Positions 277-61,896 of a stretch of 64,000 nucleotides of DNA are shown here, one piece after another; position 1 is the first letter of the stretch, and every line of letters begins with the position of its first letter. The stretch lies in the NCBI GenBank assembly GCA_944332475.1, contig CALVKA010000001.1, positions 186,001 through 250,000 of the forward strand. Direction: 5' to 3'. Source of the stretch: an uncultured Bacilli bacterium (GTDB lineage Bacteria; Bacillota_I; Bacilli_A; RF39; UBA660). The notes beneath the pieces were generated by a model, which was not told where the DNA came from, did no database searches, and saw only the letters and a list, made by a program, of their open reading frames with translations. Made by a program: the position numbers and the translations under genes.

Positions 277-1092
277 CTAAAACTTTTACAGTAGATTATA
301 TGGATGAATATGTTAGTCCTTGTACGGTTTATGATAATGTTGGTCACAGTACAGTTTGTCCTGTACAAAGAGTTAGGATGGATACGATACCGAAGAAACC
401 GACAATTAGTAACCATATAAATGAGAACTGGGTTAATTATGATTTTTCTTTACAAGTCAAGACTGAATCTCCAAGTGATTTGATTGGCTATTGGCAATAT
501 AGTTATGATCAAGAAGATTGGATTACTTATTCCGATTCAGCAACCAATAATTTTACTACTACACCTTTTACTAAAGAGAGAAATCCAGATGTTTATATTC
601 GCGTGTGTAGTAAGTATGGTTCTTGTTCAGAAGCGGCTTCTACTAGAATCCGTATCGATAAAACTCCACCTAATTCCCCCTTATTATGATAGTCTTTCAT
701 TAACGGATGCTTCTCTTAGTTATGGAAATGTGTATATAAAAAGTTGAAATTGTTCTAATAGGGGTGGTAATAGTAAGGCTGCTAGATGTGATGTTTATGT
801 AAATTCTTTAATTACTATTTGGTTTGTTTTGGATACTATTCATACGGATAATACAGGTGGTTCAGGAGTAAACGAAAATACTATAGAATTTTGGTGGGAA
901 CATCAAGGATATAGTTATTGGAATTGTCCTTATTGGTTTAAAAAGGGGCAGGATTGTGATAATACATGGAATGTTTGTGGTAGTAGTTGTTACTCATCTA
1001 GTTATTATACATATTTAATTTATAAGGAAAGGCTATATGATAATGCTGGAAATTTAGGGCCTGAATTGACGGTATATTTCCATTTTGGATAG
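255..1092 (+). pseudogene. Decayed second copy of the prepilin-like protein (C-terminal part)
   Basis: Translated in pieces, this stretch follows the middle of the intact 628-residue prepilin-like protein: VKKTVTKTFTVDYMDEYVSP, then KPTISN, then YVRAC-like (YIRVC), SEAAST and RIDKT segments. The reading frame is broken at least twice. There is a frame change at the C-run near 674-678, after which the match continues one frame over. An in-frame TGA at 745-747 then interrupts that second frame, which otherwise runs open to TAG 1090-1092. The tail (WWEHQGYSYWNC, then DNAGN) is aromatic and Cys-rich like the tail of the intact protein, but only loosely similar. There is no pilin N-terminus and no start signal, so this is a 5'-truncated remnant. 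Confidence 0.75.
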
Positions 1093-1446: not shown

Positions 1447-1833
1447 TATTTATATAATTAAAAATGATGCGACATTTTTGTTTGCTTCGTTTTTTTATAA
1501 TGTTTTGCGTTATTAATACGTGAATTTTTAGACTAAATGCAGGTTTATGAAGAAACATTTAATTTACAAGACTTATTGCTGCTTTGGAATATAAAAGCGG
1601 AAATAAGTCTTTTAATTTTGCCTAATATGAACTAGTATTACTTAAATTTTTGCATGACAAAATTACGGAGGTTATTTCCGTTTTTTAAACTTATTTCAGT
1701 TTTTTGTCATAAAACGGAATTCCAAATAAAAATCTACGAATGTTTAATATGTTTCCGTTTTTTATTGTTTTTTTTTCTTTTTTATGTTACTCTTTAATAA
1801 GATAGGGTGTGTGGGTTGTATAGGAGGTACTTT
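1447..1833. other. Non-coding gap with stacked inverted repeats
   Basis: No convincing gene is seen here. The gap holds a perfect 10-base inverted repeat (AAGACTTATT at 1568-1577 and its complement at 1602-1611). It also holds a 9-base inverted repeat (ATGACAAAA 1654-1662 with TTTTGTCAT 1702-1710) enclosing a smaller ACGGA/TCCGT hairpin (1665-1669/1677-1681) that is followed by a T-run. The string TTCCGTTTTTTA occurs twice (from 1676 and from 1752). It likely carries the terminator of the upstream unit and the promoter of the 1834 gene. Confidence 0.6.
1654..1710. repeat. Nested inverted repeats, terminator-like inner hairpin
   Basis: The outer arms are ATGACAAAA and TTTTGTCAT (9 of 9 paired). 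The inner arms ACGGA/TCCGT have a 7-base loop and are followed directly by six T. The inner hairpin alone could act as a weak intrinsic terminator on the + strand. Nested arms are more than a simple terminator needs. Confidence 0.5.
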
Positions 1834-2586
1834 ATGGAAAAGAAAAAGGGAAAGAATAAGAAAGTTAAAAAGATTAATGCAAAACTTATTATAACGGGCA
1901 TATTGCTTTTGATTGCTATTGTATTAGTGATTTTGTTAACGGCTAATAGTGTAAACTCTAATGTCAAAAGTAAATATTATACTGATGATATGATTCGTGT
2001 TGAAAATAATACTGATGATTTAGAAATTCAATCTAACGTTGTTCAAGACAGTGGTAGTTTGGTTATATTAATTTCATCAAAAGCTTCTAAGTCTCGTGCT
2101 GTCACTGTAGATGTTGATTTTTTCAATGATAAAGGTGATATTATTTATAGTGATCATGTGTCTAATTATGTTATGGATCATGGAAAAATAGTTTTGAATA
2201 TTATTTTACCTAATTTAGATGAAGAAGAGTATGCAGGCGACGTTATATTAGAAGTTACTGATGAAAAAGCAAATGATGTTGATTTTGCGGATGCCTCAAA
2301 TATTACTTATGAAGAGTCTCATGAAATTGCAGAAGATAGTAGTACGGTTTTTGAAATTACTGGAACTAATAATAGTGATACGGTTATCTCACGTTTAGAG
2401 GGTTGTATTGTGGCTTTTAAAGATGATAATATTGTAGCATTTAATAATTTTAATACTGAAAATATCGATTCCAATTCTACTTTTACTAATTCAATTAGTT
2501 TGTCAGGTGTTTTATCTGGTGATGAAATTGTTCCTTTAGATTACGATGAGGTCTTAATTTTTACTTCATCTGCTAATCCAGCGTAG
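1834..2586 (+). CDS. Bitopic surface protein, FxLYD-like family, paralog 1
   Basis: 250 residues from ATG 1834, which has AGGAGG 7 bases upstream; a longer reading from GTG 1807 would run through the ribosome binding site. The very Lys-rich N-terminus (KKKGKNKKVKKINAK) is followed by one membrane segment at about residues 19-39. The outer part has two beta-rich domains. The first (about 55-150) contains LVILISS and EEYAGDVILEV. The second (about 165-245) contains an ITGTNNSD motif and the ending DYDEVLIFTS, which resembles FxLYD-type extracellular domains. Paralogs follow at 2642 and 3393, and after the prepilin-like gene at 6119. The function is unknown; the context suggests a surface or pilus-associated role. 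Confidence 0.8.
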   Translation: MEKKKGKNKKVKKINAKLIITGILLLIAIVLVILLTANSVNSNVKSKYYTDDMIRVENNTDDLEIQSNVVQDSGSLVILISSKASKSRAVTVDVDFFNDKGDIIYSDHVSNYVMDHGKIVLNIILPNLDEEEYAGDVILEVTDEKANDVDFADASNITYEESHEIAEDSSTVFEITGTNNSDTVISRLEGCIVAFKDDNIVAFNNFNTENIDSNSTFTNSISLSGVLSGDEIVPLDYDEVLIFTSSANPA

Positions 2587-2641
2587 TATATTTATTATAT
2601 AATTTTATTAAAATATGAAGTGAGTAAATGGGAGGTAAAAT

Positions 2642-3361
2642 GTGAAAGATATTATTAGATATGTAATATTAGGAATTTTATTTGTTGCAATTGTAGTTTT
2701 AGGTGTAATGCTTGTTTTTAAAAACAACGATGATGGTCTTACCAAGTATCAATTTTATGATGACGACTTGATAGAGATTGATAATCAAACTTCCATGCAA
2801 GTACAAGCTAATATTATGAATTCGGAAAACTTGGGTGTTTTGGTTTCTTCAGATTTAGATGAATTCTTTCTAGTTAAAATAGAGGTAACTTATTATGATG
2901 ATAATCATGATAAAGTTTCTACACAAACTAATGAGTTAACGGTTTTTGACCACGGGACACAATTTGCTATGTTTTTCTTGCCTGACTTGTATGATGGTGA
3001 TGCCGGTACAATTGATATTAAGGTAACTGGTGAGAAGACAGATAAGGGGGCTATTACTTCTTCTCAAATAGAGATGACTGAAACACATTTTGTTGATGAT
3101 ACATTATCTACAAATTTCACGGTTCAAGTTACTAATAATAGTGATGTTAATATTCCGGGACTTGTAGGTCAGGTTGTCTTGTTGAAAGAAGATAAGATTG
3201 TTGGTTATCAAACGTTTGATGTTAACGAATTAATGGCACATTCTACGCTCTCATCTGATATTGTTTTTGTACCTAATATGAGAGGATCTCAATCTTTAGC
3301 TATTGATTTTGACAAAGTAATTTTATTTCCTGTTCATATATTTGATGAGGAAATAGAATAG
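2642..3361 (+). CDS. Bitopic surface protein, FxLYD-like family, paralog 2
   Basis: 239 residues from GTG 2642 (GGGAGG 6 bases upstream; an ATG two bases earlier runs straight into TGA and cannot be the start). It has a membrane segment at about residues 5-26, then the family signature YQFYDDDLIEIDNQ, then two outer beta domains ending in DFDKVILFPV. It is shorter at the N-terminus than paralog 1, lacking the long Lys tract. It sits 55 bases after paralog 1 and 31 bases before paralog 3, so the three are probably one operon. No enzyme motif is seen. Confidence 0.8.
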   Translation: MKDIIRYVILGILFVAIVVLGVMLVFKNNDDGLTKYQFYDDDLIEIDNQTSMQVQANIMNSENLGVLVSSDLDEFFLVKIEVTYYDDNHDKVSTQTNELTVFDHGTQFAMFFLPDLYDGDAGTIDIKVTGEKTDKGAITSSQIEMTETHFVDDTLSTNFTVQVTNNSDVNIPGLVGQVVLLKEDKIVGYQTFDVNELMAHSTLSSDIVFVPNMRGSQSLAIDFDKVILFPVHIFDEEIE

Positions 3362-3392
3362 ATTATGTTTTGTTGGTTATTTAGGAGGATGT

Positions 3393-4154
3393 ATGAAAAA
3401 AAGAAATGTTAAGAAAAAGAAAAATAGAGCAGATATCATACAAAATGTTGTACTTGTTGTTTTGGCAGTGATTGTGTTGGGGTTGTGTGTTGCCTTAGCT
3501 TTGCAGAGTGATAATAGTGTTCATTATACTGAATTTCGTGATTCTATGATTCACATAAATAATGATGGAAATTTGAAGGTTACTGCTAATATTTTTGAAG
3601 AACAGCAGCTTGTTGTTCTTCTTGAACCTACTTCTAGAAAAGATATAGATGTTGATGTTCAGGTGAATTTTGCTGATGCTGATGGTAAAGCAATTACTTT
3701 AGATTCTACTCAAGCTACTATTTTAAGTGATGGAAAGAATATGATGTTTTTTGATGTTCCAGAACTTGATGATGATAAGTATGCTGGTACCATTGATATT
3801 AATGTTAAAACTCATAAAATAAAAGATACTTTAGAGGCTGATTTATCTAAAGTTACTTATCAAGAAACACATGAGGTGCAAGATGATGGTAGTACTGTTT
3901 TCCATGTTAGTGGTCAAAATCAAAATGATGCTACTCTGTTGGGCCTTGTTGGTTATGTAGTAGCTTTGAAAGATAATAAAATAGTTGCTTATAATTCTTT
4001 TACTAAAGAAAGAATAGGTGCAAATGAAATGTTTTCTTTTGATATAACTTTTCATGGTATGTCTACTACTCAAGACGATAAGGTAAGTCCAGTTGACTAT
4101 GATGAATTAATGATTTTTTCATCTTTTGCAATGGATGATTATGAAAATGAATAA
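3393..4154 (+). CDS. Bitopic surface protein, FxLYD-like family, paralog 3
   Basis: 253 residues from ATG 3393 with AGGAGG upstream. It has a Lys/Arg-rich start, a membrane segment at about residues 16-37, the signature HYTEFRDSMIHINNDGNL, and two outer domains. The second contains HVSGQNQNDATLLGLVGYVVALKDNKIVAYNSF in outline, closely parallel to paralog 1. It ends with DYDELMIFSS and a short acidic tail. It lies 26 bases ahead of the prepilin-like gene. This gene order (family member, then prepilin) is the order needed to explain the fused pseudogene at 1-1092 by deletion. Confidence 0.8.
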   Translation: MKKRNVKKKKNRADIIQNVVLVVLAVIVLGLCVALALQSDNSVHYTEFRDSMIHINNDGNLKVTANIFEEQQLVVLLEPTSRKDIDVDVQVNFADADGKAITLDSTQATILSDGKNMMFFDVPELDDDKYAGTIDINVKTHKIKDTLEADLSKVTYQETHEVQDDGSTVFHVSGQNQNDATLLGLVGYVVALKDNKIVAYNSFTKERIGANEMFSFDITFHGMSTTQDDKVSPVDYDELMIFSSFAMDDYENE

Positions 4155-4180: not shown

Positions 4181-6067
4181 ATGAGACAAATGAATAAAAA
4201 AGGTTTTACTTTGGTAGAGTTAATTGTTGTTATTGCTATTATGGGGGTTATCTTGATTTTGGCTTTGCCTCAAGTTGGTAGAATTCGAGCGAATAATCGG
4301 GATGCTAAATTTGATGCTTATGCTCAGGCTATTGAGCGTGGAGCTAAGTTGTATGTAGATAATTATTCTAGAGATTTATTTGGGTATAGTGATTCCGGAT
4401 GTGTGGAGGTAAAATATTCTTGGTTGAAAAACAAAAATTTAGTTAAAGATTTTTCTGATAAAGATATTGATTGTGATAATGATAGCGAAACTTATGTACA
4501 AATAAGAAAAGTAAATGATAGTTATCGTTATGCAACGGCAGTAGTATGTAAAAGAGGAGAAGAAGTTGTCTATAAGAAAGAGATTAATAGTGAATTTACA
4601 TGTGATACTTCTAAAGATATCAGTGGACCAGTCTTTACTGTAACACCACCTTCATCTGATTGGATACAGACAAAGAATCTACATATTACAGTTAAGGTAT
4701 CTGATCCAAGTGGATTAAATAATAATATAGGAATTAGTTATTATTGGACCAATTTGTCAGGAACTCAAGTAGGAACAAAATATTATCATAACTATAAGAA
4801 TAAGAAAGATGTAGAGTCTGTAAAATATACGATACCAACATCTCATGTACCAGATACTGGACAGTACAAATTGGTAATTGAGCCATGGGATGGAGAAGGA
4901 ACGGTAGGAGTACAAGATTCTTTAGGAAATTATAAGTTATTAAGTGATACGTATGGAACGTATAAGATAGATAATGTTCCACCTAAGTGTGTAACAGTAG
5001 GGGGAGGAGATCAATGGTTCCATGAAGCAGTAACTTTATATGGAAACTGTACAGATGAACATAGTGGATGTGTAAAGAAACAGATATCAAAAGTATGGGA
5101 TGTAGAGATAATGGATGAATATGTGACACCTGGAACAGTAGAAGATCATGCAGAAAATAAAACAGAATGTCCAAAGAATCGAGTAAGGATAGATAAGCCG
5201 CCAGTGAAACCAACGATAAGTAATCCAACGAATGGAAAATGGACGAATAAAGATTTTACGATAACGATGAAGACAGTAACAGCAAGTAGTAGAATCGGGC
5301 ACTGGGAATATAAGTATGATAATGGAAGTTGGCAAACATATTCAAATTCAGCAAGCAATACACATAGTATGACAATTAGTAGTGATAAGAGTGGTACATT
5401 ATATGTAAGAGCATGTACGAATGCGAGTGGGATATGTTCTGAAGCAGCATCTACTACTATACGACTAGATAAAACGAATCCATCTTGTTCTAGCTGGAAA
5501 GAGAATACGTGGACTACAGGAGGAGTGACTGTAAAGTATTCTTGTGGAGATAACTTAAGTGGAGTGGTATCATGTCCAGGAACTAGATGGGGTTTAAAGA
5601 GTGGAATTGGTCCTACAACGATAAAAGACAATGCAGGAAATACCGCAACATGTCCAGGAAAGTCTGTAGCATCAGCATTTCAATATAATACTGCGACAAG
5701 GCGTGTTCGAACATGTACAGATTCTTGTTGTGGACTACTTCCGTATGACTGTAACTGTAGTAGTAAATGTACCTTGTGGAAATGTACATATTATGCAGAT
5801 GATAATGACTCATTTTTTGCACATACAGAGCGTAGATTATCTTATCAATGCCCATCAACATATCATCCAACTTCTTGGTTAACTACGTATTTGGGTCGTT
5901 CAGAATGTATAAAAACGACGACAACTTGTAATACATGTTATAGAAATAAAACCTGTACAACTGTATCTTGTTGTGGCTATACAGACTGGTCATGGACCGG
6001 ATGGGGCAATGGGTATTGGTGTAGCAGTAATACTTGTAAATATCAAACAAGAACGGTTTATTATTAA
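4181..6067 (+). CDS. Oversized type IV prepilin-like surface protein
   Basis: 628 residues. The N-terminus is a textbook class III signal: KKG followed by FTLVELIVVIAIMGV, giving cleavage after Gly8 and Glu at position 5 of the mature protein, then a hydrophobic helix to about residue 30. Residues 30-140 look like a pilin head. After about residue 145 come repeated beta modules (SGPVFTVTPP; KPTISNPTNGKW; a YVRAC/SEAAST module; DKTNPSC). The last 100 residues are very Cys-rich and end in a thrombospondin-1-like string (DWSWTGWGNG ... TCKYQTRT). This is several times longer than a normal pilin. No pilus ATPase, platform protein or prepilin peptidase is in the window. Codon use shifts to A-ending codons after about base 4640. 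Confidence 0.85.
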   Translation: MRQMNKKGFTLVELIVVIAIMGVILILALPQVGRIRANNRDAKFDAYAQAIERGAKLYVDNYSRDLFGYSDSGCVEVKYSWLKNKNLVKDFSDKDIDCDNDSETYVQIRKVNDSYRYATAVVCKRGEEVVYKKEINSEFTCDTSKDISGPVFTVTPPSSDWIQTKNLHITVKVSDPSGLNNNIGISYYWTNLSGTQVGTKYYHNYKNKKDVESVKYTIPTSHVPDTGQYKLVIEPWDGEGTVGVQDSLGNYKLLSDTYGTYKIDNVPPKCVTVGGGDQWFHEAVTLYGNCTDEHSGCVKKQISKVWDVEIMDEYVTPGTVEDHAENKTECPKNRVRIDKPPVKPTISNPTNGKWTNKDFTITMKTVTASSRIGHWEYKYDNGSWQTYSNSASNTHSMTISSDKSGTLYVRACTNASGICSEAASTTIRLDKTNPSCSSWKENTWTTGGVTVKYSCGDNLSGVVSCPGTRWGLKSGIGPTTIKDNAGNTATCPGKSVASAFQYNTATRRVRTCTDSCCGLLPYDCNCSSKCTLWKCTYYADDNDSFFAHTERRLSYQCPSTYHPTSWLTTYLGRSECIKTTTTCNTCYRNKTCTTVSCCGYTDWSWTGWGNGYWCSSNTCKYQTRTVYY

Positions 6068-6118: not shown

Positions 6119-6811
6119 ATGACGAAAAATGTTGTTTTAAATATTATTATGGTGGCTTTTTTCATTATTGTAATCGGATTAGTTTATTTGAACTTTTTCA
6201 TAGAAGTTGACTCATCTAATATTGTTTACAAACAATATTGTGATGATTTGATTGATATTAATGATAATGCTATGTTTAAAACGGAAGCAAATTTTGTTGA
6301 TAAGGATACTTTAGCGGTTTTGGTACATTCTCAAGAAGATTTTGCTCTATCTCTTTATGTTAATGCAATTTTTTATGATCAAAGTGGAAAAGTAGTTTCT
6401 ACTGAGACTTCTAGTATATCTACTTTTCCGAATAATTATGGGGTCACTTCTATTTCTGTTCCGGTTTTAGAAGAAAGTCAAAATCCTGGAAATATAGTGA
6501 TTCAATTAGCGGGGCATGAAATTGATAATGATTTAGTGGATGTTTCAAATATTTCTTATGAGTCTAATGATTCCTATCCTTTGGTAATAAAAACTACTAA
6601 TAATACTACCTCTAATATTTCTCAATTAGGTACTCAAGTTGTTGCATTACGTAAAGGAAGAATTGTTGGTGTGGATGTCTTTTTCCATGATTCTTTGGCA
6701 AGTGGTGCTTCAGTTTCTGATGAGTCATATGCTTTTGGAACAAATGAGGATGAGCCTAAACCTACATATGATGATTTATTGATTTTTACAACAGCTGCAA
6801 ATATAGGATAG
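6119..6811 (+). CDS. Bitopic surface protein, FxLYD-like family, paralog 4
   Basis: 230 residues with a membrane segment at about residues 5-26. The family signature is KQYCDDLIDINDNAMFKTEANFVD in outline, followed by two beta-rich outer domains ending in TYDDLLIFTTAANIG, which parallels the end of paralog 1. It follows the prepilin-like gene by 51 bases, so copies lie on both sides of it. A short hairpin (ATAGTC 6808-6813 with GACTAT 6820-6825) overlaps the stop but has no clear T-run. The likely role is in the same surface complex; this rests on position only. Confidence 0.78.
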   Translation: MTKNVVLNIIMVAFFIIVIGLVYLNFFIEVDSSNIVYKQYCDDLIDINDNAMFKTEANFVDKDTLAVLVHSQEDFALSLYVNAIFYDQSGKVVSTETSSISTFPNNYGVTSISVPVLEESQNPGNIVIQLAGHEIDNDLVDVSNISYESNDSYPLVIKTTNNTTSNISQLGTQVVALRKGRIVGVDVFFHDSLASGASVSDESYAFGTNEDEPKPTYDDLLIFTTAANIG

Positions 6812-27039: not shown

Positions 27040-29253
27040 ATGAAGTATGAAAGCGGAGAAGATTTTTTAGATTCTTTATTTCAAGAGTTGCATATGGAGG
27101 ATGCTGTTATGCTAACGGCAGATAAAAGTGATACTCCTGAACAAAAAATTGGTAAATATTTAGATAGAGTGGAAAGAGTACATGATAAGGCTCAAGAAAG
27201 TTCTCATAAAATGGAACGCTTAAAACACTTTTACTATGAAAAGTATGTTATCAAAGAATTACCAGATAGTTTTTTACGATTGAAAAAAAAGATTGCTATT
27301 GATAAAGCTGTTGAAAATTTTGAAATTACTTCTTCTATGATGAAGCAATGGTTATCTGAGGTTCAAGAAAATCAAAAAAGTACTCTTGATAGATGGATTG
27401 ACTCTTTATCTAGTAATCAAACCTATCCAACTTGGTTTAAGGTATATGCCTTTCGTGGTATGTTGAAGCTTGGAAAATTTGATAAGTCTACTGGTGAGTT
27501 TGGAAGAAGAAGTAAAAATACTACAGATGGTTTTGCTGATTTAAATCCAGAAGCTTTGGAACTGGTGTACCAAACTTTGACAGCAGAAATTGGTAGTGAT
27601 AAGGTTTTGACGAATGAAAATCTAGAGGCTTTAGAGCATGGTGAAAGTTTTAAACGACTTTATGAACATTTTTTAGGTGAAGTTGTCTTGAGGGAAGATG
27701 AATTCAATCCTAAAGAGGGAGTCTGGAAAAGATATGAACGTGGAAGTTCTCCTGGTTTTTTAATGGATGATATTGAGGGTGCTATTACTGGATGGTGTAT
27801 TGCTGGTAGTGGATATTCTGGTATGTATCTTAAAGGTAGTGATATTTATGTTTATTTTGTTAAAGGCATAAATGGTGGTTTTACGGATCCTAGGATTGCG
27901 ATTCGTATGGAAGGTACTGGTAAAGTTGCTGAGATTCGAGGTGTTGGATATGGACAAGAACTAGAAGAGTCCTTATATCCAGTTCTTAGTGACAAATTAA
28001 AAGAATTTCCGGGCGCAGTAAAGGAACGTAAAAGAGTTGTGAATGTGCAAAGAGTTTCTAACGTTTATGATAAGTTTAAAAACGGAGAAGAATTATCTGA
28101 TGATGATTTACGATTAATTTATGGATTGGATGGAGAGGTTGCATCATATGGATTGTTTGGTGATAAATCATGGGAAATTTTACAAACAAGAGATAAGAAA
28201 AAGGATTTATCACGAATTTTGGGTTGTCAAGAAGATGAAGTGGCATTATCTGATGCGGATTTTGAAGGACATGATATTTTGTATTATTATGGCAATATAT
28301 ATTGTTATGAACGTGAACTTCCTCAAAAGTTTCAGCATTTAAAGGGGATTATTGGGAATGCTAATTTTTGTAAATTAAGTAATGCAAAAGGATTAGAGAG
28401 TTTGGAATTTATTACGAAAGGAGCTGATTTTTATCGTCTTATTAGTGCTATTGGTTTAGATTCTTTAGAATTTATTGGAGATAATGCAACGTTTTCTTCT
28501 CTTAGTAGTGCAAAAGGATTAGAGCGTTTAGAATTTATTGGTGGGGATGGTCATTTTCAGTTCCTTTCAGATGCCTTAAGTTTGAAATCCTTACATCTTA
28601 TAGGTGGTCATGCTAATTTTTCTTCTCTTGCTAGTACAGAAGGTTTAGAAAAGTTATGTTGTATTGGTGGAGATGCTAACTTTTCTTCTCTTGTTCATTC
28701 CAAAGGCTTAGAAGGTTTGCAAAGTATTGGTGGGGATGGTAAATTTCCATCGCTTATTGAGGCTTTAAATTTAAACTCTTTACAGTTTATAGGTGGAGAT
28801 GCAATATTTTCTTCTCTTGTTCATTCCAAAGGCTTAGAAGGTTTGCAAAGTATTGGTGGGGATGGTAAATTTCCATCGCTTATTGAAGCTTTAAATTTAA
28901 ACTCTTTACAGTTTATAGGTGGAGATGCTAACTTTTCTTCTCTTATTAGTGCTATTGGTTTAGAGAGTTTACAACGTATTGGTTTTGATGCTTTTTTTGA
29001 TAGTTTAACTAGTGCGGAGGGAATAAAAAACATTAAATATGTGGGAGGATATGCTCATCTACCTAAGTTATCTGATGGTGATAGTTTAAAAGGATGGAAA
29101 CGTGAAGGAGTCTTGTATTTTCCAGATTTTCCAGATGACTTAGTAGATAGTAATGATAAAAAAGTAAGAAGTGAAATTCAATCTGCTTCTGAACTTTTAG
29201 ATACTATAGAACTAACTTCTTCTAAGAAGAATGATGCTAGCTATAGTTTATAA
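27040..29253 (+). CDS. Unknown 21-residue-repeat protein between parE and parC
   Basis: 737 residues. It begins 11 bases after parE, behind AGGAG. The N-terminal region (about 1-330) is shared with the protein at 46359: FLDSLFQELHMEDAVM, then YPTWFKVYAFRGMLKLGKFDK, then a TGWCIAG motif (Trp near residue 251) and PRIAIRMEGTGKVAEIRGVGYGQ. A linker leads to about 13 repeats of 21 residues (consensus GLESLQxIGGDAxFSSLxSAK, residues about 440-690), which look like a leucine-rich, solenoid-type fold. No signal peptide or membrane helix is present. The function is unknown; the TGWC and IAIRM blocks resemble uncharacterised bacterial proteins I recall only as hypothetical. It is not a topoisomerase part. 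Confidence 0.8.
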   Translation: MKYESGEDFLDSLFQELHMEDAVMLTADKSDTPEQKIGKYLDRVERVHDKAQESSHKMERLKHFYYEKYVIKELPDSFLRLKKKIAIDKAVENFEITSSMMKQWLSEVQENQKSTLDRWIDSLSSNQTYPTWFKVYAFRGMLKLGKFDKSTGEFGRRSKNTTDGFADLNPEALELVYQTLTAEIGSDKVLTNENLEALEHGESFKRLYEHFLGEVVLREDEFNPKEGVWKRYERGSSPGFLMDDIEGAITGWCIAGSGYSGMYLKGSDIYVYFVKGINGGFTDPRIAIRMEGTGKVAEIRGVGYGQELEESLYPVLSDKLKEFPGAVKERKRVVNVQRVSNVYDKFKNGEELSDDDLRLIYGLDGEVASYGLFGDKSWEILQTRDKKKDLSRILGCQEDEVALSDADFEGHDILYYYGNIYCYERELPQKFQHLKGIIGNANFCKLSNAKGLESLEFITKGADFYRLISAIGLDSLEFIGDNATFSSLSSAKGLERLEFIGGDGHFQFLSDALSLKSLHLIGGHANFSSLASTEGLEKLCCIGGDANFSSLVHSKGLEGLQSIGGDGKFPSLIEALNLNSLQFIGGDAIFSSLVHSKGLEGLQSIGGDGKFPSLIEALNLNSLQFIGGDANFSSLISAIGLESLQRIGFDAFFDSLTSAEGIKNIKYVGGYAHLPKLSDGDSLKGWKREGVLYFPDFPDDLVDSNDKKVRSEIQSASELLDTIELTSSKKNDASYSL
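28681..28932 (+). repeat. 126-base tandem duplication inside the repeat protein
   Basis: Bases 28681-28806 and 28807-28932 are nearly identical (two 21-residue repeats, 42 codons each). Differences are a silent GAG/GAA and a few bases at the unit ends. It is a recent in-frame expansion. Confidence 0.9.
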
Positions 29254-33390: not shown

Positions 33391-35274
33391 ATGAGAAAGT
33401 TAAATAATGGTGGTTTTGCTATTTCGACATTATTATATGGTCTTATGATAATGTCTTTATTAATTGTCTTAGCGTTGTTAAGTAATCTTGGTTCTAGTCG
33501 TCAGAGTACAACAACATTTGTTGATAAGATAGAAGATGAATTGAATCGATTAAGTGTTACTGATACTGAAGGTGAATACGCTGGCGGTGAAGTAGATAAT
33601 AATGGTCGTGAATATATTGCTCCAACTGCTGGCTGGTATAAAATTGAATTATGGGGTGCTGGTGGAGGTGGCTCTAATGGAGGTAAAGGAGCTTATGTTT
33701 CTGCCATTATGTATTTGGATATTAATGATTATTTGTATTTTTATGTAGGTGAAAAAGGAAATAAGAGTACGACTTTTAATGGTGGTGGTAGTGCCTCTGG
33801 TAGTTATTATGCTGGTGGAGGAGCTACGGATGTTCGTTTGATTTCTGGTTCTTGGAATGATCCTTCTTCTTTAGAAAGCAGACTTATGGTTGCGGCTGGA
33901 GGTGCTGGTGGAGGTTCTTCTGCTGGTGGTGCTGGAGGTTCTTTGATTGGTGGTAATACGAGTTTAGCTGGAACACAATCTGGTGGTGCTAGTTTTGGTA
34001 AAGCTGCTAATGGTAGTTCTTCTGCTGCTGGTGGTGGTGGAGGATACTTCGGTGGTAAAGCTGCTAATGGTGCTGGAGGTGGTTCTTCCTTTATTATGGG
34101 ATATGCTGGTGTTCGTACAAGAATGAATGATGTTACTTCTACGGATACGATAAAGACTTTCCAGCAGATTCATTTAGGAGAGTATGTTCCTGCTAAAGAT
34201 GCAGATGGTAATCCATTACCTAATGCTGGTGATCCAGTGTTGGAGGATTATACTTCTACAATTTATAATGGATTAATTGTTCCTGGTGTTAATTCTGAAG
34301 GGGGAAAATTTAAAATTACAAAGGTTTCTGATAATGCAAAAGAAAATCCTCCAAGATTTGGTAGTAATAATAGTTTAAAACAGGTTAGATATATTGTTGA
34401 CTGTGTTGATAGTAATACTTCGAATACAACTGGATATTGGACAGAGATTCAGGCAATTGGTACGAAAGGTGGGAAAGATGGTGTCAATGTAGCAAAGGGT
34501 GCTACTGTTGCAGCTTCTTCTGGTGGTACTTTACAAAATGGTTCTCGTATTGTGGATGGTATTGCTGATACTACATCTTCTTATGCTCAAATTTCTGGTT
34601 CGGGGACAAAATGTGTCAAGGTTACGCTGGATGGAACTTATGATTTGTCCGAGATTGCTGTTTGGCATCGAATTGGTTATACTTTTAGTGGACATACGTT
34701 AGCTGTAAGTTCTGATAATTCTAGTTGGACTTATGTTCGTACGAAGAGTTCTGATAGTAGTTCTACGGGATTGCAAAATGAAGCTGAGACAGCTAATGGT
34801 ATTCGTTATAATACCTTCCATTCTTCTGATACCGGTGAATTGGTAGAAGGAAATTATTATATTTTTTCTGCTAATAGTGATAATATGGTTTTATCTTCTT
34901 ATGAAGAGAGTGGTATTACTATTGCTAGAATGGAACCTTTTACAGGTGAGGATAATCAAGTATGGCATGTTTATAAGCAAGCAGATCCTTCTACAGGAAC
35001 AGAGTATTATCGAATGGAAAATACGGCAAATAATTTGGCTTTAGAAGTTTCTGATAATAGTGCCGATATCGGAGTTACTATTGACTTATATCAAAATAAT
35101 GTAGAAAATACTGCTCAAAATTGGAATTTAAATCCTTTAGGAAATGGATATTATATTGTTACTTCTCAGTTGAATGTACGTATTGGTTATAATACTAGTA
35201 ATTCTATTGTTCAGACACAGTCTAATACTCAGAATAAAACGCAACGTTGGAAATTTGTTTGGGCAGATTATTAG
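33391..35274 (+). CDS. Prepilin-like glycine-rich protein with discoidin-like and ricin-type lectin domains
   Basis: 627 residues. The N-terminus LNNGGFAISTLLYGLMIMSLLIV resembles a class III (prepilin) signal, with Gly8-Phe9 and no Glu at +5. Residues about 60-235 are the ALK-like glycine-rich domain (ELWGAGGGGSNGGKGAYVS; GGGATDVRLISGSW). Residues about 330-455 look like a discoidin (F5/8 C) domain (ASSGGTLQNGSRIVDGIADTTSSYAQI, then KCVKVTLDGTYDLSEIAVW). The last 150 residues are a ricin-type beta-trefoil with the QxW-like repeats QVWHV, QNWNL and QRWKF, so carbohydrate binding is likely. It is a surface adhesin or pilus-tip candidate. It has its own terminator and follows rsmD by 27 bases. 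Confidence 0.82.
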   Translation: MRKLNNGGFAISTLLYGLMIMSLLIVLALLSNLGSSRQSTTTFVDKIEDELNRLSVTDTEGEYAGGEVDNNGREYIAPTAGWYKIELWGAGGGGSNGGKGAYVSAIMYLDINDYLYFYVGEKGNKSTTFNGGGSASGSYYAGGGATDVRLISGSWNDPSSLESRLMVAAGGAGGGSSAGGAGGSLIGGNTSLAGTQSGGASFGKAANGSSSAAGGGGGYFGGKAANGAGGGSSFIMGYAGVRTRMNDVTSTDTIKTFQQIHLGEYVPAKDADGNPLPNAGDPVLEDYTSTIYNGLIVPGVNSEGGKFKITKVSDNAKENPPRFGSNNSLKQVRYIVDCVDSNTSNTTGYWTEIQAIGTKGGKDGVNVAKGATVAASSGGTLQNGSRIVDGIADTTSSYAQISGSGTKCVKVTLDGTYDLSEIAVWHRIGYTFSGHTLAVSSDNSSWTYVRTKSSDSSSTGLQNEAETANGIRYNTFHSSDTGELVEGNYYIFSANSDNMVLSSYEESGITIARMEPFTGEDNQVWHVYKQADPSTGTEYYRMENTANNLALEVSDNSADIGVTIDLYQNNVENTAQNWNLNPLGNGYYIVTSQLNVRIGYNTSNSIVQTQSNTQNKTQRWKFVWADY

Positions 35275-46358: not shown

Positions 46359-48149
46359 ATGAAGTATCAAAATGGGGAAGAGTTTTTAAATGCATTGTAT
46401 CAAGATATGCATATGGATGATGAGGTTATGTTTACTGCTGATAAAAGAGATACTCCTGTAGAAAAAATTGAAAAATATATGGAGCGATTAGAAAGAGTGC
46501 ATGAAAAAGCAATGTCTAGTCCTCATAAAATGGACCTTTTAAAAAGAGCTTATTATGATCGGTATGTGATAAAAGAACTTCCTGAAAGTTATGTTCGCTT
46601 ACAACAAAGGATTGCTAGAGAAAGAGGGTACGGTGATGTTGATGTTACTGATGAGATGAAAGAGCAAATGTTATCTCAGATACAAAATAATCAAATGAGG
46701 TCTTTAGAGTCTTGGGTTGAGTATTTATCTAGTGATGATGCTATGTATCCTACTTGGTTTAAACATTATGCTTTTCGTGGAATGTTAAAACTAGGACAAT
46801 TTGATAAAGAAAAAGGAGAGTTTTCTAGACGTAGTAAAACAACTACCGAACCATATGTAGAATTAAATCAAGAAGTTCTTGCGAAGGTCTATGACGCTTT
46901 ATCTAAAGAGATTGGAACGACAGAAGAAATTAGTGATGAAGTAAAGATAGCGTTAGAAAACGGAGAAAGTTTTAAAAAGTTATATGCATATTATTTAAAA
47001 AATATGGATTATGTTCAACATAATGAAGATACGGATGGTATTTGGATTAAGTATGAACAAGGTAGTGATTATCATCCTTTATGGGAATCTTTACAAGGTA
47101 AAAATACAGGATGGTGTACGGCTGGTGAAGAAACGGCAAAAGTTCAACTTGAAAACGGAGATTTTTATGTGTATTATACCAAGGATGAAAATGGTGAATA
47201 TAAAAATCCGAGGATTGCGATTCGGATGGATGGGCATTCTAACATAGGAGAAGTTCGAGGAATTGGCCCTGATCAAAATATGGAAGGGTGTATGACTCCT
47301 ATTATTGAGAAAAAATTAGATGAGTTTCCAGACAAAGAACTATATTTAAAGAAAATTCATGATATGAAGTTATTAACAGAAATTGATAAGAAAGTAAAAC
47401 AGGATGTTGAATTATCTAAGGAGGAATTAAGATTTTTGTATGAGATAGATTCTCCAATCGAAGGATTTAGCTGTTGGAAAGATTCTAGAATTTTCGAAAT
47501 AATAAGTAAGAGAGATAAAAAAAAGGATGGTGCATTTTTATTCAATTGTGCAGAAGATAACATTGGAACTCATATATCAGATTTTGACGTTCATGAGATT
47601 ATTGTGTATATGGGAGGGCTACATTATAATGGCCAATTTGTTCCTTATATTTTTAAAAGCTTACAAAATATAGTTGGATCTGCTCGTTTTAGTAATTTAA
47701 CTAGTTCAAAGGGTTTAGAAAGTTTACAAAGTATAAGTGGTAATGCTGATTTTCATAATTTAGCTAGTGTTGAAGGTTTAAAAAAATTACAAAGTATAGG
47801 TGGGTATGCTGGCTTTGATAATTTAACTAGTGCTGAAGGCTTAGAAAATTTACAAAGTATAGGCGGCGATGCTGCTTTTGGTAGTTTAACTAGTGCAAAA
47901 GGCTTAGAGAGTTTGCAAAGTATAGGTGAAACTGCTGAGTTTTATAGGTTGACAAGTGCTGAAGGTTTGGAAAGTTTACAAATTATAGGCGGAGATGCTT
48001 ATTTTAATAGTTTATCAAGACTTGATAATCTTAAAAGTTTAAAAACTATTGGTGGGAAAGTGTCTTTAGGTATGGAATCAGCTTCTGATTTGTTAGATGC
48101 CGATAGGAAAGGTGAAGTTGCTCACGACAGAAATCTTGGATTAAGGTAG
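46359..48149 (+). CDS. Unknown 21-residue-repeat protein, paralog of the parE-parC insert
   Basis: 596 residues. The first 330 are clearly homologous to the 27040 protein: EEFLNALYQDMHMDDEVMFTADKRDTPVEKIEKY, YPTWFKHYAFRGMLKLGQFDKEKGEFSRRSK, TGWCTAG (Trp near 251), then GDFYVYYTKDENGEYKNPRIAIRMDG and EVRGIGPDQN in outline. The C-terminal part has about 6 repeats of 21 residues (GLESLQSIGGDAxFxSLTSAE). Fewer repeats explain its shorter length. No signal or membrane segment. It has its own promoter and is flanked by direct repeats of the trxA 3' end. Function unknown. Confidence 0.8.
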   Translation: MKYQNGEEFLNALYQDMHMDDEVMFTADKRDTPVEKIEKYMERLERVHEKAMSSPHKMDLLKRAYYDRYVIKELPESYVRLQQRIARERGYGDVDVTDEMKEQMLSQIQNNQMRSLESWVEYLSSDDAMYPTWFKHYAFRGMLKLGQFDKEKGEFSRRSKTTTEPYVELNQEVLAKVYDALSKEIGTTEEISDEVKIALENGESFKKLYAYYLKNMDYVQHNEDTDGIWIKYEQGSDYHPLWESLQGKNTGWCTAGEETAKVQLENGDFYVYYTKDENGEYKNPRIAIRMDGHSNIGEVRGIGPDQNMEGCMTPIIEKKLDEFPDKELYLKKIHDMKLLTEIDKKVKQDVELSKEELRFLYEIDSPIEGFSCWKDSRIFEIISKRDKKKDGAFLFNCAEDNIGTHISDFDVHEIIVYMGGLHYNGQFVPYIFKSLQNIVGSARFSNLTSSKGLESLQSISGNADFHNLASVEGLKKLQSIGGYAGFDNLTSAEGLENLQSIGGDAAFGSLTSAKGLESLQSIGETAEFYRLTSAEGLESLQIIGGDAYFNSLSRLDNLKSLKTIGGKVSLGMESASDLLDADRKGEVAHDRNLGLR

Positions 48150-57008: not shown

Positions 57009-57076
57009 TAGCTTGACTTTTTTCTTTTAGGGTGTTAGTATATAAGCAAATGCGTAAAGAACGGGGGAATGTTGTT

Positions 57077-58741
57077 ATGTATAGTGCACAATATAATAAA
57101 AAGGGATTTGCTATCAAAGACTTTTTACTAAAGTTTATTTTAGTATGTGTCTTTGCTTTTTTAATTGCTTGGTTATTGCCTAAATTTTTAGAGCCAGCAG
57201 TTATTACGAATGCGGAAGAAGCTCCAGTTGATGTTTCTCCTCTTACTTCTCAAATTTTTGCAGATAATTTGGAGAAAATGAAAGAAGCTGCTATTTCGTA
57301 TTATACAGATGAAAGACTTCCACAGGCTGTTGGTGAGTCAGATACCATGACATTAAGTGATATGATTGGTAAAAAATTAATTGTGGCTTTAATTGATGAA
57401 AATAATAAAGCTTGTGATGTTGAAGAAAGTTATGTTCAAATCACAAAAATGGAAAATGAATATTTATTGAAAGTAAATTTAAAAGATAGTGTAAAAGAAG
57501 ACTATATTTTAGTTCATTTAGGTTGTTATACTTATTGTGATTCTTATATTTGTGAAAAGCAAGATACTCCTATTAAACAAGCGGTTTCTAGTGAACCAAT
57601 AGCTTCAGTTCCTGTAAAAGCTGGTGTTGATGATACTGTTTATGTTTCTGAAGGTGGAAATTCTAATGTAAACAATAATTGTACAAGTGGTACCGATTGT
57701 GATAACGATATTAATATTGATATCGATATCGATATTGATAATGATAATAACAATAACAACAATAACAATAACAATAACAATAACAACAATAACAACAATA
57801 ACAACAATAACAACAATAATAATGGTAGTACGACTACACCAGATGAGGAATTACCTAATCCTGATGATGATGACAAAGAACCAGATACTCCTGTAGAGGA
57901 ACCTGATGATGAGACAGAATATTTATATGAATATCAAAAAAACCAGGATGCTTCTTTTACAGAGTGGTCTGATTGGTCTGCATGGGAAGAAACAAGCTGT
58001 TCTACACCTGAATATAATTGTAATAGTAATGATCCTACTTGTTTAAAGAAAGTACAAAGATATGATCGAAAAGAACAGATTGGTACTTATTTAAAAAAAT
58101 ACGAAAAACAAAGACAGGTATTAACTCAGACAGGATCTTATCAACAAAAGTCTTGTGCTAATTTTAATTATTATATTATTTCTGATAGAACATATGCTAC
58201 AACTACAACAACAACTTATAAGGTTGTACAACAAGTAATTACTACGGCTGGTCAAACTAGTGGTGGTGGATGGGTATATAATGGAAGAGCAAGTTATGAT
58301 AACCCTCCAAGAGATACTGCTACAACACAATATAAGTTTGTAGGTGCAAATTATAGTTATTGTGAAGAAACTTGTACAACATTACCTGAATATTATTATG
58401 ATTCTTATGTATGGAAAGGTGGAAGTAGTTTATCTAGTGTAACTAATACCACTACTGTTCCTGTTGGATCTTCTGATAGTACTTCTTCTGATGATTCTTC
58501 TTCATTAGAAGTAACCTGTGGCAACGTTGTTACTAAGACAGTTCCAATTTATGATTATATTACTGTGTCTGAAATTGCAACTCGTAGAGAACCATTATAT
58601 GGTACAGTTTGCTATAAAAGTACTAAGACTAGAGATTTGATTGACTCTGGTAAGACAATGACTACTTGGAGTAAATATAATGATGAGGAGTTATTAAATA
58701 ATGGATGGTACTATACAGGTGAGAGAAAACCAGTTGAGTAA
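57077..58741 (+). CDS. Prepilin-like surface protein with an Asn run and TSP1-like motif
   Basis: 554 residues from ATG 57077 (GGGGGAA upstream). The N-terminus NKKGFAIKDFLLKFILVCVFAFLIAWLLP has a class III signal shape: Gly10-Phe11, Asp at +5, then a hydrophobic helix. Residues about 40-165 are a pilin-like head with paired Cys (LGCYTYCDSYICEKQ). A linker holds an Asp/Ile/Asn stretch and 26 Asn in a row (57746-57823). The C-terminal 280 residues are Cys-, Tyr- and Thr-rich and include EWSDWSAWEETSC, a WxxWxxW string like thrombospondin type 1 repeats. No sortase motif. It is followed 15 bases later by the 864-residue protein, probably one operon. Confidence 0.78.
   Translation: MYSAQYNKKGFAIKDFLLKFILVCVFAFLIAWLLPKFLEPAVITNAEEAPVDVSPLTSQIFADNLEKMKEAAISYYTDERLPQAVGESDTMTLSDMIGKKLIVALIDENNKACDVEESYVQITKMENEYLLKVNLKDSVKEDYILVHLGCYTYCDSYICEKQDTPIKQAVSSEPIASVPVKAGVDDTVYVSEGGNSNVNNNCTSGTDCDNDINIDIDIDIDNDNNNNNNNNNNNNNNNNNNNNNNNNNNGSTTTPDEELPNPDDDDKEPDTPVEEPDDETEYLYEYQKNQDASFTEWSDWSAWEETSCSTPEYNCNSNDPTCLKKVQRYDRKEQIGTYLKKYEKQRQVLTQTGSYQQKSCANFNYYIISDRTYATTTTTTYKVVQQVITTAGQTSGGGWVYNGRASYDNPPRDTATTQYKFVGANYSYCEETCTTLPEYYYDSYVWKGGSSLSSVTNTTTVPVGSSDSTSSDDSSSLEVTCGNVVTKTVPIYDYITVSEIATRREPLYGTVCYKSTKTRDLIDSGKTMTTWSKYNDEELLNNGWYYTGERKPVE
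57746..57823 (+). repeat. AAC/AAT codon repeat encoding 26 asparagines
   Basis: Every codon is AAC or AAT in a mostly AAC-AAC-AAT or AAC-AAT rhythm. The tract can expand or contract in frame by slippage. Confidence 0.92.
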
Positions 58742-58756
58742 GGGGGAAAATAAATT

Positions 58757-61351
58757 ATGAATCAAGAGAAAATTTTAAATATTGTTCAATTTCATGTAAC
58801 GGATTCTGTTACTGATGATGAAGGTAATCAAATATCAACTTCCTGGGAGCCAATTGTTGTCTTTTCAGTTGATGATAATGGTAAATCTTCTGTTAAGGTT
58901 TATTCTCCAGAGGAAGGACGTACTATTGCAAATAAAAATCATATGCAGATATTGGGAGCAACTAGTGATTATGCTGTGACTCCAGAGATTATAGAAAAAA
59001 ATTATCAGTCTTTTGCTACGATTGCTGGATTTGATCCACGAGTAAAACCAAAATCTAATCCTACTGCTTTAGCTAAGACAAAGGATTCTGTTTTAGCAAC
59101 GAGACCTGTGAATGCTTCAAAAGCAACTGATGCTAAGAAGTCTAAGCCAGATCAAACTGTTCCTGTTGGTAAGGCTACAGCTTCTAACCATAGTTCTACA
59201 CAAGATTTGGATGATGATACGAAGAAAGATAGCATTTTTAAAAGAACATTAAGAAGTGTTGCTTATCCATTTATTGCTGCTTATGGCCTTATTGGAAAAG
59301 CGTGTGATTGGGCTACAGAAAAATTTCTTCGCCCTAAGAAAAAGGTGAAAAAGGCAACTTTTGGAGACCGCTTCAAAGCGTGGTTTGCTGCTAAAAAGGG
59401 GGATGCTACTGATAAAGCTAAGAAGTTTGCTAGTGAAACAGTTGCTATGAAAGCACAAAAGAAAGGGGCAAAAAATTTCTCACGTAATCGTAGGAGAACA
59501 ACTCCACGAAGACCTGCTAGTAAAAAAGGACTTTTTGGACGAATTGCTACAAGGGTAGCAGCTATTGTAACCCCTATTGCTTTAGCTCTTGGATTAACTG
59601 CAGCATCTCCTATTACGAATGCTAGTGCTGAAGATACTAGTTCTGGTGTTACACAAGAAGCAGATGTTGATGTAACTAATTTAACGGATGAAGAGTTAGT
59701 AGAGATGATTCAGTCTGGTGAATTGTCATTAGATCAAGTAAAGGTGATGCTTGCAACTGGCGAGATTACTAATGATGCTTTGGATGGTCTATCTTTTGAT
59801 CAATTGTTACAAGTTAGTAATTCTGATATTCAATATCAAGAAATGTCTAAAATTGGTAATTATTTAGATTACTTTAATGGTACATTTGCTAATTATTATG
59901 TAGAATCCAATCATCCTGATATTAGAGCTGCTTTAAGTTGGGATGAGGTATCTGCTATTAATTTAGCTTATAATGATTTTACAACTGAAGAAATTAGAGC
60001 TATCTTTAATGGATATGAAGTTGATTCTGCAGAGTTTACAAATTCTTATAAAGAAGCTACTTTACAGTTGATGGGTGCTTTTGTTTTAGAGACAAGAGAT
60101 ATGCCTGTTGATTTATCTCAATTATTAAACACTCAAGAAGGACAAGAATTTTATCAAAAATATAATGAATTGTTCTTAAGATGTAAGGAAACTACTGGAC
60201 AAGATCAAATCGATGCTGTTAATGCTTTCTATCAAGAGCTACATAACGATTTTCCAATTAATGCGGATCAAAGAGAAGTGGGTATTTCTCATGCGGAAAC
60301 TCGTGATGATATTGAAGCTTATAAATTATCTGTTACTCCTATGGTAGCAGCTGCTGAAATGATGTTCCAAAACTTAGATATTGATTATACTTTATCAGAT
60401 CAAGCAATCGCTTATTTTAATGACTTAGGTTTATGTAATTTTGCACAAGGCTCTTTTGATAAAGCAGAAACAATTATGCTTTGTGTCGATGAAAATGAGT
60501 CTTTACCTAAATATCAACAATTTGCAGATAGCAAAATTCAAGAATTAAAGAAAGAAGATCGTTATTTCTCAAGTGATAGAGAACGTGATTTGAGTCAATT
60601 GGATTTATTCCAAGAATGGGTAAATGGTCACTTTGATTTAAATGAAGCTGGTGAATTTGTTATTTCACAAAGTATTACTTCTACTGTTGTAAAAACTTAT
60701 TCGACATCTTCTACCACTTATCGTACAGAACATTCTGAAAGATCTGTAAGTAGAGAAGAAGCTGTTGCTGCATTTGGTGAAGATGAGGTTAGAAGACAAG
60801 AGGCTGAGGTTAATAGTCAATTTGATTCATGGAATGCTCAACAAAAAGCAGAAGGTGAAGCTGCTGCAGAGCAAAAACGTCAAGATTTACAAGCAGAAGC
60901 TGATAAAGATGCTGAAGCAATCCGTGATGAAATAGCAAAAGATGATCAAGATATGCAAGAAGATATTGAACATGCCAATGATACTCTTGAACAAGGTGGA
61001 ACTGTTAACGAGGGTGATTTTGGTGATCACGATGTTGATTTTGATCAAGATCATTCTGATAGTCAAGGTAATTTGGATGGTAGTGTTGGGAGTATTACAG
61101 AAGATGGCACAGGTGCTGATCAAGATTTGCCAGATCCAAATGAGACTGGAAAAGAGTTAGATGATAGTGAACCTGATTATAGCAATCGACCTGAAGGTAC
61201 GATTAGTGGTAGTCCTGCAGAAAGTGATTTTACTACTACTGATACTAGTAGTCAGACAATGACAAATGAAGAAGTAGCTGATGCGATCGTGGAAGCTATG
61301 GCAGCTGAAGATACTGCAACTGATGAGAACGTATATGTTTATACAAAATAA
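58757..61351 (+). CDS. Large protein with internal signal sequence and long acidic tail
   Basis: 864 residues. Residues 1-240 are soluble: a small beta domain (about 6-70) and a Lys/Ala-rich helical region (about 155-240). A very basic segment (RNRRRTTPRR, 243-252) leads into one hydrophobic stretch (about 263-285) ending TNASAED, a typical signal-peptidase site. The following 570 residues should be outside: a helical domain (about 305-640), an Ala/Glu/Gln coiled coil (about 690-760) and an Asp/Glu/Ser/Thr-rich tail. There is no wall-anchor motif. Either it is a bitopic protein with a large inner domain, or it is cleaved after the helix. Co-operonic with the Asn-run prepilin-like gene. Family unknown. 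Confidence 0.7.
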   Translation: MNQEKILNIVQFHVTDSVTDDEGNQISTSWEPIVVFSVDDNGKSSVKVYSPEEGRTIANKNHMQILGATSDYAVTPEIIEKNYQSFATIAGFDPRVKPKSNPTALAKTKDSVLATRPVNASKATDAKKSKPDQTVPVGKATASNHSSTQDLDDDTKKDSIFKRTLRSVAYPFIAAYGLIGKACDWATEKFLRPKKKVKKATFGDRFKAWFAAKKGDATDKAKKFASETVAMKAQKKGAKNFSRNRRRTTPRRPASKKGLFGRIATRVAAIVTPIALALGLTAASPITNASAEDTSSGVTQEADVDVTNLTDEELVEMIQSGELSLDQVKVMLATGEITNDALDGLSFDQLLQVSNSDIQYQEMSKIGNYLDYFNGTFANYYVESNHPDIRAALSWDEVSAINLAYNDFTTEEIRAIFNGYEVDSAEFTNSYKEATLQLMGAFVLETRDMPVDLSQLLNTQEGQEFYQKYNELFLRCKETTGQDQIDAVNAFYQELHNDFPINADQREVGISHAETRDDIEAYKLSVTPMVAAAEMMFQNLDIDYTLSDQAIAYFNDLGLCNFAQGSFDKAETIMLCVDENESLPKYQQFADSKIQELKKEDRYFSSDRERDLSQLDLFQEWVNGHFDLNEAGEFVISQSITSTVVKTYSTSSTTYRTEHSERSVSREEAVAAFGEDEVRRQEAEVNSQFDSWNAQQKAEGEAAAEQKRQDLQAEADKDAEAIRDEIAKDDQDMQEDIEHANDTLEQGGTVNEGDFGDHDVDFDQDHSDSQGNLDGSVGSITEDGTGADQDLPDPNETGKELDDSEPDYSNRPEGTISGSPAESDFTTTDTSSQTMTNEEVADAIVEAMAAEDTATDENVYVYTK

Positions 61352-61374
61352 GGAGCATAACTCCTTATTTTTTT
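61347..61374 (+). terminator. Intrinsic terminator
   Basis: AATAAGGAG (61347-61355) pairs with CTCCTTATT (61361-61369), loop CATAA, T-run. It overlaps the stop. Confidence 0.85.
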
Positions 61375-61376
61375 GT

Positions 61377-61405
61377 TTGACAATTTTTTGGTTTTATGAT
61401 ATAAT
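61377..61405 (+). promoter_or_regulatory. Consensus sigma-A promoter
   Basis: TTGACA 61377-61382 and TATAAT 61400-61405, 17-base spacer, TGA before the -10 box. A 60-base leader with a short CTTCA/TGAAG stem (61413-61417/61437-61441) follows. Confidence 0.88.
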
Positions 61406-61473: not shown

Positions 61474-61896
61474 ATGGAAACAAAATCTTATATATTTGAA
61501 TATTTGGATGAAAACGATTTTAGAAAGAAAGAGCGTTCTGTTCGTAAGTATAATATGCTTGCTTATAAAAAGTTAACATTTTCTTATTATCCAGAATTAA
61601 GAAAGGGTAATTTCTTAGGTAAAGAAGTTAGTAAAAATGAAAAAGATTATACTGTTTCTTATGAATTAAAATTACCTACAGATGAATTATTTGCCAAAGT
61701 TCATGGTGAAATTATGTTACATTATACTGTTTATTTAGAAAAGCATATTATTCTTTTAACTAATATTACTCCGGAAGGTATTTTAGATGAAGGACATAGA
61801 GCAGAGTTATCTACTTATAAAGGTGTTATGATTTCTAAAACCAATCCGGAAAAAGATATGTTTAAAATTAATTTACTTAATATGTTAGGAAAATAA
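61474..61896 (+). CDS. Unknown conserved-looking small protein
   Basis: 140 residues, soluble, mixed alpha/beta: KSYIFEYLDENDFRKKERSVRKYNMLAYKKLTFSYYPELRKG in outline, then LPTDELFAKVHGEIMLHYTVYLEKHIILLTNITPEG. No motif is recognised. GGGAGG lies 10 bases before ATG 61474. It has the best promoter in the window and its own terminator, which suggests solid expression. Confidence 0.75.
   Translation: METKSYIFEYLDENDFRKKERSVRKYNMLAYKKLTFSYYPELRKGNFLGKEVSKNEKDYTVSYELKLPTDELFAKVHGEIMLHYTVYLEKHIILLTNITPEGILDEGHRAELSTYKGVMISKTNPEKDMFKINLLNMLGK

Follow-up and report, generated by a model that had tools for sequence, protein, structure and literature searches.

The 64,000-nucleotide stretch of contig CALVKA010000001.1 analyzed here (the window), from an uncultured member of the order RF39, contains two adjacent open reading frames on the forward strand, separated by 15 bases, which we call A and B (Table 1). 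Judged from their sequences, the two products are probably bitopic envelope proteins, both with the N-terminus inside and the C-terminus outside, that form a surface or envelope complex with an intracellular module. Any given function is in our estimate less probable than this architecture. The initial annotation of the locus had likened the pair to a surface machine that connects the cytoplasm with the exterior, a description that the predicted architecture would fit.

Protein B has a single hydrophobic stretch (best 19-residue window 259-277; the best 17-residue window is given in Table 1). It is preceded by 30 residues with a net charge of +11 and followed by PITNASA and then ED, and the sequence ahead of it is hydrophilic apart from an amphipathic-looking stretch at residues ~161-195. 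Read from its N-terminus, B consists of an N-domain, a variable charged stretch, amphipathic and basic stretches, a signal-like segment (residues ~259-291) ending in ASA, a core and an acidic tail, which bears out the earlier observation of a basic stretch, a hydrophobic core and ASA behind a soluble N-terminal part. The hydrophobic stretch is not a chance feature, because it occupies a homologous position in eight aligned long same-genus proteins and because the flank charge is more positive upstream than downstream of the segment in 32 of 34 B-type proteins. By B-type we mean whatever protein is encoded next to A: only some of these proteins are detectable B homologues, the rest being positional counterparts, and the set omits G145 and G151 (protein not directly downstream of A) as well as G005 and G010 (no membrane segment). 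The charge count additionally omits G159, which is open at the contig end, and the cysteine counts below are based on 35 proteins.

Both the start and the conservation of the long N-terminal part of B indicate that it belongs to the protein. AAGGGG lies upstream of eight of nine same-genus B starts (for the ninth, in G010, codon 29 with its G-rich upstream region makes the better start), and the long same-genus relatives extend over 793-1062 aa in one frame (that of G008 is cut by the contig end). Of 40 genomes, 13 contain matches to the N-domain, which is kept in frame; among same-genus relatives it is 31-40% identical to the window copy (20% in G008, over its remaining 25 residues; values for the core are given in Table 1). 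In the pair G002/G015 the N-domain had a dN/dS-type ratio of 0.28, compared with 0.69 in the variable stretch and 0.34 in the ectodomain, which indicates purifying selection on the N-domain in this pair. The short B proteins of G005, G010 and G012 retain the N-domain and the basic region and have lost the membrane segment and the ectodomain, and the B of G007 is also short and without an ectodomain, which makes four relatives whose N-domain has outlasted the outer part. These proteins form a natural deletion series, which argues in favor of an N-part that works as a module on its own.

It could alternatively be supposed that translation of B truly starts at an internal ATG (codon 231), the N-part not being co-translated, or that two genes fused recently. 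The signal-like segment does lie 30 residues after ATG 231, and G045 and G129, outside the genus, share the ectodomain with only ~70-75 different residues before the segment. Since the ectodomain is kept there behind a different N-part of ~70 residues, the N-part is exchangeable, and in the wider B family fusion or replacement events have taken place at an earlier time. However, no Shine-Dalgarno sequence was found at ATG 231, for which reason a start at that codon was dropped, whereas the start at 58757 has a conserved one, and the N-domain is kept in frame. Nor were B orthologues seen that begin near residue 231, which the initial annotation had named as the observation that would speak against a co-translated N-part. 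We therefore consider an internal start or a recent fusion extremely improbable. The annotation had left a choice between a cytoplasmic N-part and a gene fusion: the former is supported by the conserved Shine-Dalgarno sequence at the long start and the frame kept in same-genus relatives, and the latter holds for older events in the wider family and not for window B. On this evidence the N-part is genuinely translated as one protein with the remainder of B and in all likelihood remains in the cytoplasm, and B is best read as a bitopic N-inside/C-outside protein rather than as a start error or a recent fusion.

Relatives of B were detected in 10 of 40 genomes with the single sequence and in 22 of 193 with a profile, and they occur in about eight other genera. 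Over the 35 B-type loci the segment starts anywhere from residue ~20 to ~435, extremes that include weak segments (G159, score 1.34). A lipobox-like pattern ends the segment in 14 of the 35 proteins, seven of them with the strict form [LVI][ASTVI][GAS]C, and is found nowhere else in them; its Cys, at residue 43-451, lies 15-22 residues past the last Lys or Arg. Cysteine accounts for 16 of 455 residues at the segment end and for 89 of 26618 elsewhere in B-type proteins. Beyond residue 60 the pattern was present in 13/35 B-type proteins and 18/377 other open reading frames of the same loci (p 9e-8), but these loci share descent and the p-values are overstated. Six of eight long same-genus B proteins carry it. 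Window B has Ala at the Cys position, with ASA further on and no lipobox, and the B of G014 has neither the Cys nor a clear site.

These observations raise the question of how the segment is processed. B could be bitopic on a lipoprotein-type signal, with Lgt lipidating the segment-end Cys in the relatives, with or without a cut by LspA, and with the Cys lost from the window copy. The position and enrichment of the Cys point in this direction, as does the presence of Lgt and LspA in the window's own genome, and we hold this to be possible without favoring it. On the other side, 21 of the 35 proteins, window B among them, lack the pattern, the Cys lies far past the usual position of lipoprotein signals, it could be there for a disulphide, and processing at an internal signal is only putative. 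B-type proteins thus resemble bacterial lipoproteins in the lipobox-like Cys that ends the hydrophobic segment in some of them, and differ in the internal position of the signal and, for window B, in the missing Cys. A wider proposal would make the B family cytoplasm-spanning lipoproteins with an internal lipobox, lipidation by Lgt, a cytoplasmic domain of 40-450 residues and optional LspA processing; the window species would be derived, with either an ordinary anchor or a site for signal peptidase I in place of the Cys, and B would form with A an undescribed, family-specific inside-outside surface complex. This we find rather doubtful. Signal peptidase I could also cut B at ASA, which would release the outer part by secretion or shedding and leave the N-part with the segment behind as a separate inner product. 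The window protein indeed has a basic stretch, a hydrophobic core and ASA directly before Glu, but ASA is not conserved, the aligned relatives having LxxC or neither, and we regard such a cut as quite unlikely.

Protein A has a short charged N-terminus, a single strong hydrophobic anchor (residues 16-34), a head reaching to residue ~161, a variable linker and a C-terminal part rich in Trp, Cys, Thr and Tyr. A search with the single sequence found relatives in 17 of 40 genomes and in none of 15 genomes of other families. In 193 genomes drawn from the order, which all carry the label of one family, a profile of the head had matches in 181 at E<=1e-4. This count includes six weak matches (1e-5 to 1e-9), which could be the heads of true pilins, given that a true prepilin of the own genome reaches 3e-8 as well. 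A probably has a pilin-type head, because the head profile reaches true prepilins of its own genome (E 3e-8 and 0.005); in hhalign, A and the window pilin at 4181-6067 were aligned with a probability of 77 and an E of 2e-5 that refers to a single comparison.

Whether A is itself a pilin is a separate matter. The initial annotation had called it prepilin-like, and one might picture the organism's pili as carrying A as a minor type IV pilin of the modular kind. The head matches to true prepilins are in line with this, the window copy has Gly10 with GF at the anchor, and its genome encodes a prepilin peptidase and a T2SSE ATPase. However, the class III signal has not been conserved: among 16 A relatives Gly-1 is found in 8, Glu5 in none and Asp5 in 11, all 16 have Lys or Arg at +4, outgroup genera have Asn, Thr or Ser in place of the Gly, and GxxxxE occurs within the first 45 residues of only one of 55 A proteins. 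Moreover, the prepilin peptidase family PF06750 went undetected in 17 of 193 genomes, and all 17 match the head, 16 at E<=1e-15 and the remaining one (G081) only at 5e-7, whereas the 12 genomes without A all have PF06750. The genomes are drafts in which genes can be missed, and it is the genus-wide absence in g26 (none of six genomes with detected PF06750, all six with A) that bears the weight. As a processed or true type IV pilin, A was consequently rejected, and the prepilin-like label fails in that sense. We regard A as a protein that is held by a signal anchor and bears a pilin-type head, and not as a processed pilin, the minor pilin being very unlikely. The definition of type IV pilins applied here comes from passages of PMC8179133, which describe PilB of Streptococcus sanguinis as a modular type IV pilin. 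Like PilB, A would have a membrane-near pilin-type head and an extra module behind a linker. In contrast to it, A has no class III signal or Glu5, carries Lys or Arg at +4, occurs where no prepilin peptidase is detected, and may have ~20-40 residues between the anchor and the next predicted helix, where a type IV pilin would have a single unbroken helix of ~50 residues (helices 13-38 and 54-78 are separate, in a model with a mean pLDDT of only 38.9).

The run of 26 Asn that had been reported to join the pilin-like head of A to a C-terminal Cys/Trp region was found at residues 224-249. It is written in mixed AAC and AAT codons inside a tandem repeat, adjoins a GAT/ATT repeat encoding alternating Ile-Asp, and is the sole Asn run longer than three among window open reading frames of >=80 aa. 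None of the 15 A orthologues examined has an Asn run longer than three. The run is best described as a local repeat expansion (an Asn microsatellite) in the variable linker of this species, and it was dropped as a functional feature, being a species-specific repeat missing from the 15 orthologues. In G005, G006 and G010, A comprises only 164-194 aa, without linker or C-part; it is likewise short in G127 and G162. A separate open reading frame follows the A of G127, and that short form may reflect a frame break.

The suggestion that A and B work together comes from their outer halves. Among 16 genomes of the genus, seven have both the A C-part and the B ectodomain, four have a short A or none together with a short B, and in four neither gene was found; G006 is the only genome with a short A and a B ectodomain, and an A C-part without a B ectodomain did not occur. 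Over the 12 genomes with A or B this co-variation gives a Fisher p of 0.010. Outside the genus, strong similarity in the C-part (149-343 bits) coincides with a strongly related B in one set of seven loci, and across loci a B-type gene often adjoins A.

The proposed complex should nevertheless be viewed with some caution, since several results weigh against it. Shared descent does not enter into the Fisher test, and G006 is an exception to the pattern. Head scores are also higher in the seven loci outside the genus, and relatedness explains at least part of the agreement there. A long A without an adjoining B was found in G180, G193, G204, G206, G018 and the UViG L115; A can therefore act without B. 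For the inner side of B, the N-domain ratio for G000/G002 was 0.93 (few sites), the selection signal is missing for the window's own copy, and the different N-part of G045 and G129 has to be taken into account. Finally, structure models were poor, with a mean pLDDT of 38.9 for A and 37.1 for B; they were built from alignments of two and three rows (the window protein and L034, plus L115 for A).

Family searches did not assign either protein. In Pfam and NCBIfam searches covering A, B and their neighbors, A and B had no match above the curated cut-offs, and Pfam searches with all members of three alignments, as well as sequence searches of solved structures, gave nothing above chance. RodZ, the RsgI anti-sigma factors, MapZ and PASTA kinases are bitopic proteins that reach from the cytoplasm to the surface, and B is like them by description: it shares a cytoplasmic N-domain, a basic juxtamembrane stretch, one membrane segment and an outer domain. 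None of their Pfam or NCBIfam domains is found in B. A literature search on RF39 surface proteins, pilins and adhesins, on internal lipobox signals and on modular pilins found no paper on A or B. According to a passage in PMC10868615, a peptidoglycan wall is predicted for most RF39 species.

Table 1. Features of the A-B locus (window coordinates; residues refer to the respective protein).
Feature	Position	Strand	Remark
Promoter-like site ahead of A	57013..57041	+	TTGACT-17-TAGTAT; only 9/12 consensus positions
Protein A, 554 aa: predicted signal anchor, pilin-type head, linker, C-terminal domain	57077..58741	+	
A membrane anchor, residues 16-34	57122..57178	+	Hydropathy; helix 13-38 in poor model
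A head, residues 54-161	57236..57559	+	Alignment of 16 relatives
Asn run in linker, residues 224-249	57746..57823	+	
A C-terminal part, residues 282-552, rich in Trp/Cys/Thr/Tyr	57920..58732	+	
Shine-Dalgarno of B, AAGGGGG	58740..58746	+	
Protein B, 864 aa	58757..61351	+	
B N-domain, residues 1-95, predicted strands then helix	58757..59041	+	Alignment
B amphipathic stretch, residues 161-200	59237..59356	+	Retained in short B proteins; present twice in that of G012
B basic juxtamembrane region, residues 201-258	59357..59530	+	
B internal hydrophobic segment, residues 267-283	59555..59605	+	
Possible signal peptidase I site ASA, residues 289-291	59621..59629	+	Sequence only
B conserved ectodomain core, residues 331-650	59747..60706	+	38-77% identity to same-genus relatives
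B acidic tail, residues 741-864, net -31	60977..61348	+	
Terminator-like hairpin with T run, 3' of B	61345..61371	+	1 found vs 1.5 expected in shuffles

The genome comprises 1.43 Mb in 7 contigs. Upstream of A lie genes for a PfkB-type sugar kinase and a small Smr-domain protein, and downstream of B follows a gene for a 140-aa protein without family match (61474-61896), ahead of which there is a perfect promoter consensus at 61377-61405. Promoter-like sites number 35 in the region, compared with 25 (sd 5) in shuffled sequences. The order kinase, Smr, A, (B-type), 140-aa gene was seen again in many related loci. The 140-aa protein looks cytoplasmic and is conserved beside A across loci, including those without B; it is perhaps a closer partner of A than B is. 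On the IMG/VR contig L115 (1-8477), an A relative at the contig edge is followed by the 140-aa gene and then by an integrase-like gene, with no B between, and a prophage seems to have inserted beside the A locus of another genome. In G214 (L129, 1876-5484), two tandem A-type genes precede a B-type gene.

Heads and anchors of related kinds were noted elsewhere. On contig C2 of the own genome, L095:10536-12674 encodes a true prepilin of 712 aa with an N_methyl motif, an A-like head and a thrombospondin type 1-like stretch (PF00090, E 5e-4, 20.7 bits; cut-off 21.6); as regards the A C-part, no thrombospondin family was among the Pfam hits, up to E 1, of nine A proteins. L095:1198-3030 encodes a 610-aa protein with a non-prepilin anchor, an A-related head (E 1e-4) and a bacterial surface Ig-like domain, and is a second non-pilin carrier of the A-type head. 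Within the window, the product of 33391-35274 has a prepilin-like N-terminus (no N_methyl match at E 0.01) followed by Gly-rich ALK/LTK-type, F5/8-type and ricin-type lectin domains, and four adjacent paralogous genes for small anchored proteins (1807-4154 and 6119-6811) surround the true pilin gene at 4181-6067, the first of them having no Pfam match at E 0.01. Two further paralogous window proteins (27040-29253 and 46359-48149) share an N-terminal domain and GGDA.FSSL..AKGLESLQSI repeats, again with no Pfam match at E 0.01.

Taken together, A would be held in the membrane by an uncleaved signal anchor (residues 16-34) and would expose a membrane-near pilin-type head, a flexible linker, lengthened by Asn in this species, and a distal Trp/Cys/Thr-rich domain that probably contacts a partner, the envelope or a surface. 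B would place a small N-domain, an amphipathic stretch and a basic juxtamembrane stretch inside the cell, cross the membrane once through a segment of the signal-peptide type, and continue outside as an ectodomain that is mostly helical and ends in an acidic tail. The distal part of A and the ectodomain of B probably cooperate outside, with the N-part of B as the inside end, and the simplest use of such a pair would be as a complex of the envelope or for adhesion, with an adaptor or sensor on the inner side.

In conclusion, the A head is present in nearly every sampled genome of this bacterial family, yet it has carried neither a name nor an assigned function. The predicted arrangement of B, with ~260 residues inside ahead of an internal signal-like segment that ends in Cys in many relatives, is unusual. 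Together with its positional counterparts, B provides a natural series, with segments of one kind lying behind 20 to 435 residues, in many cases with a lipobox-like Cys, and this series makes it testable whether lipoprotein enzymes can use a signal that is not N-terminal.

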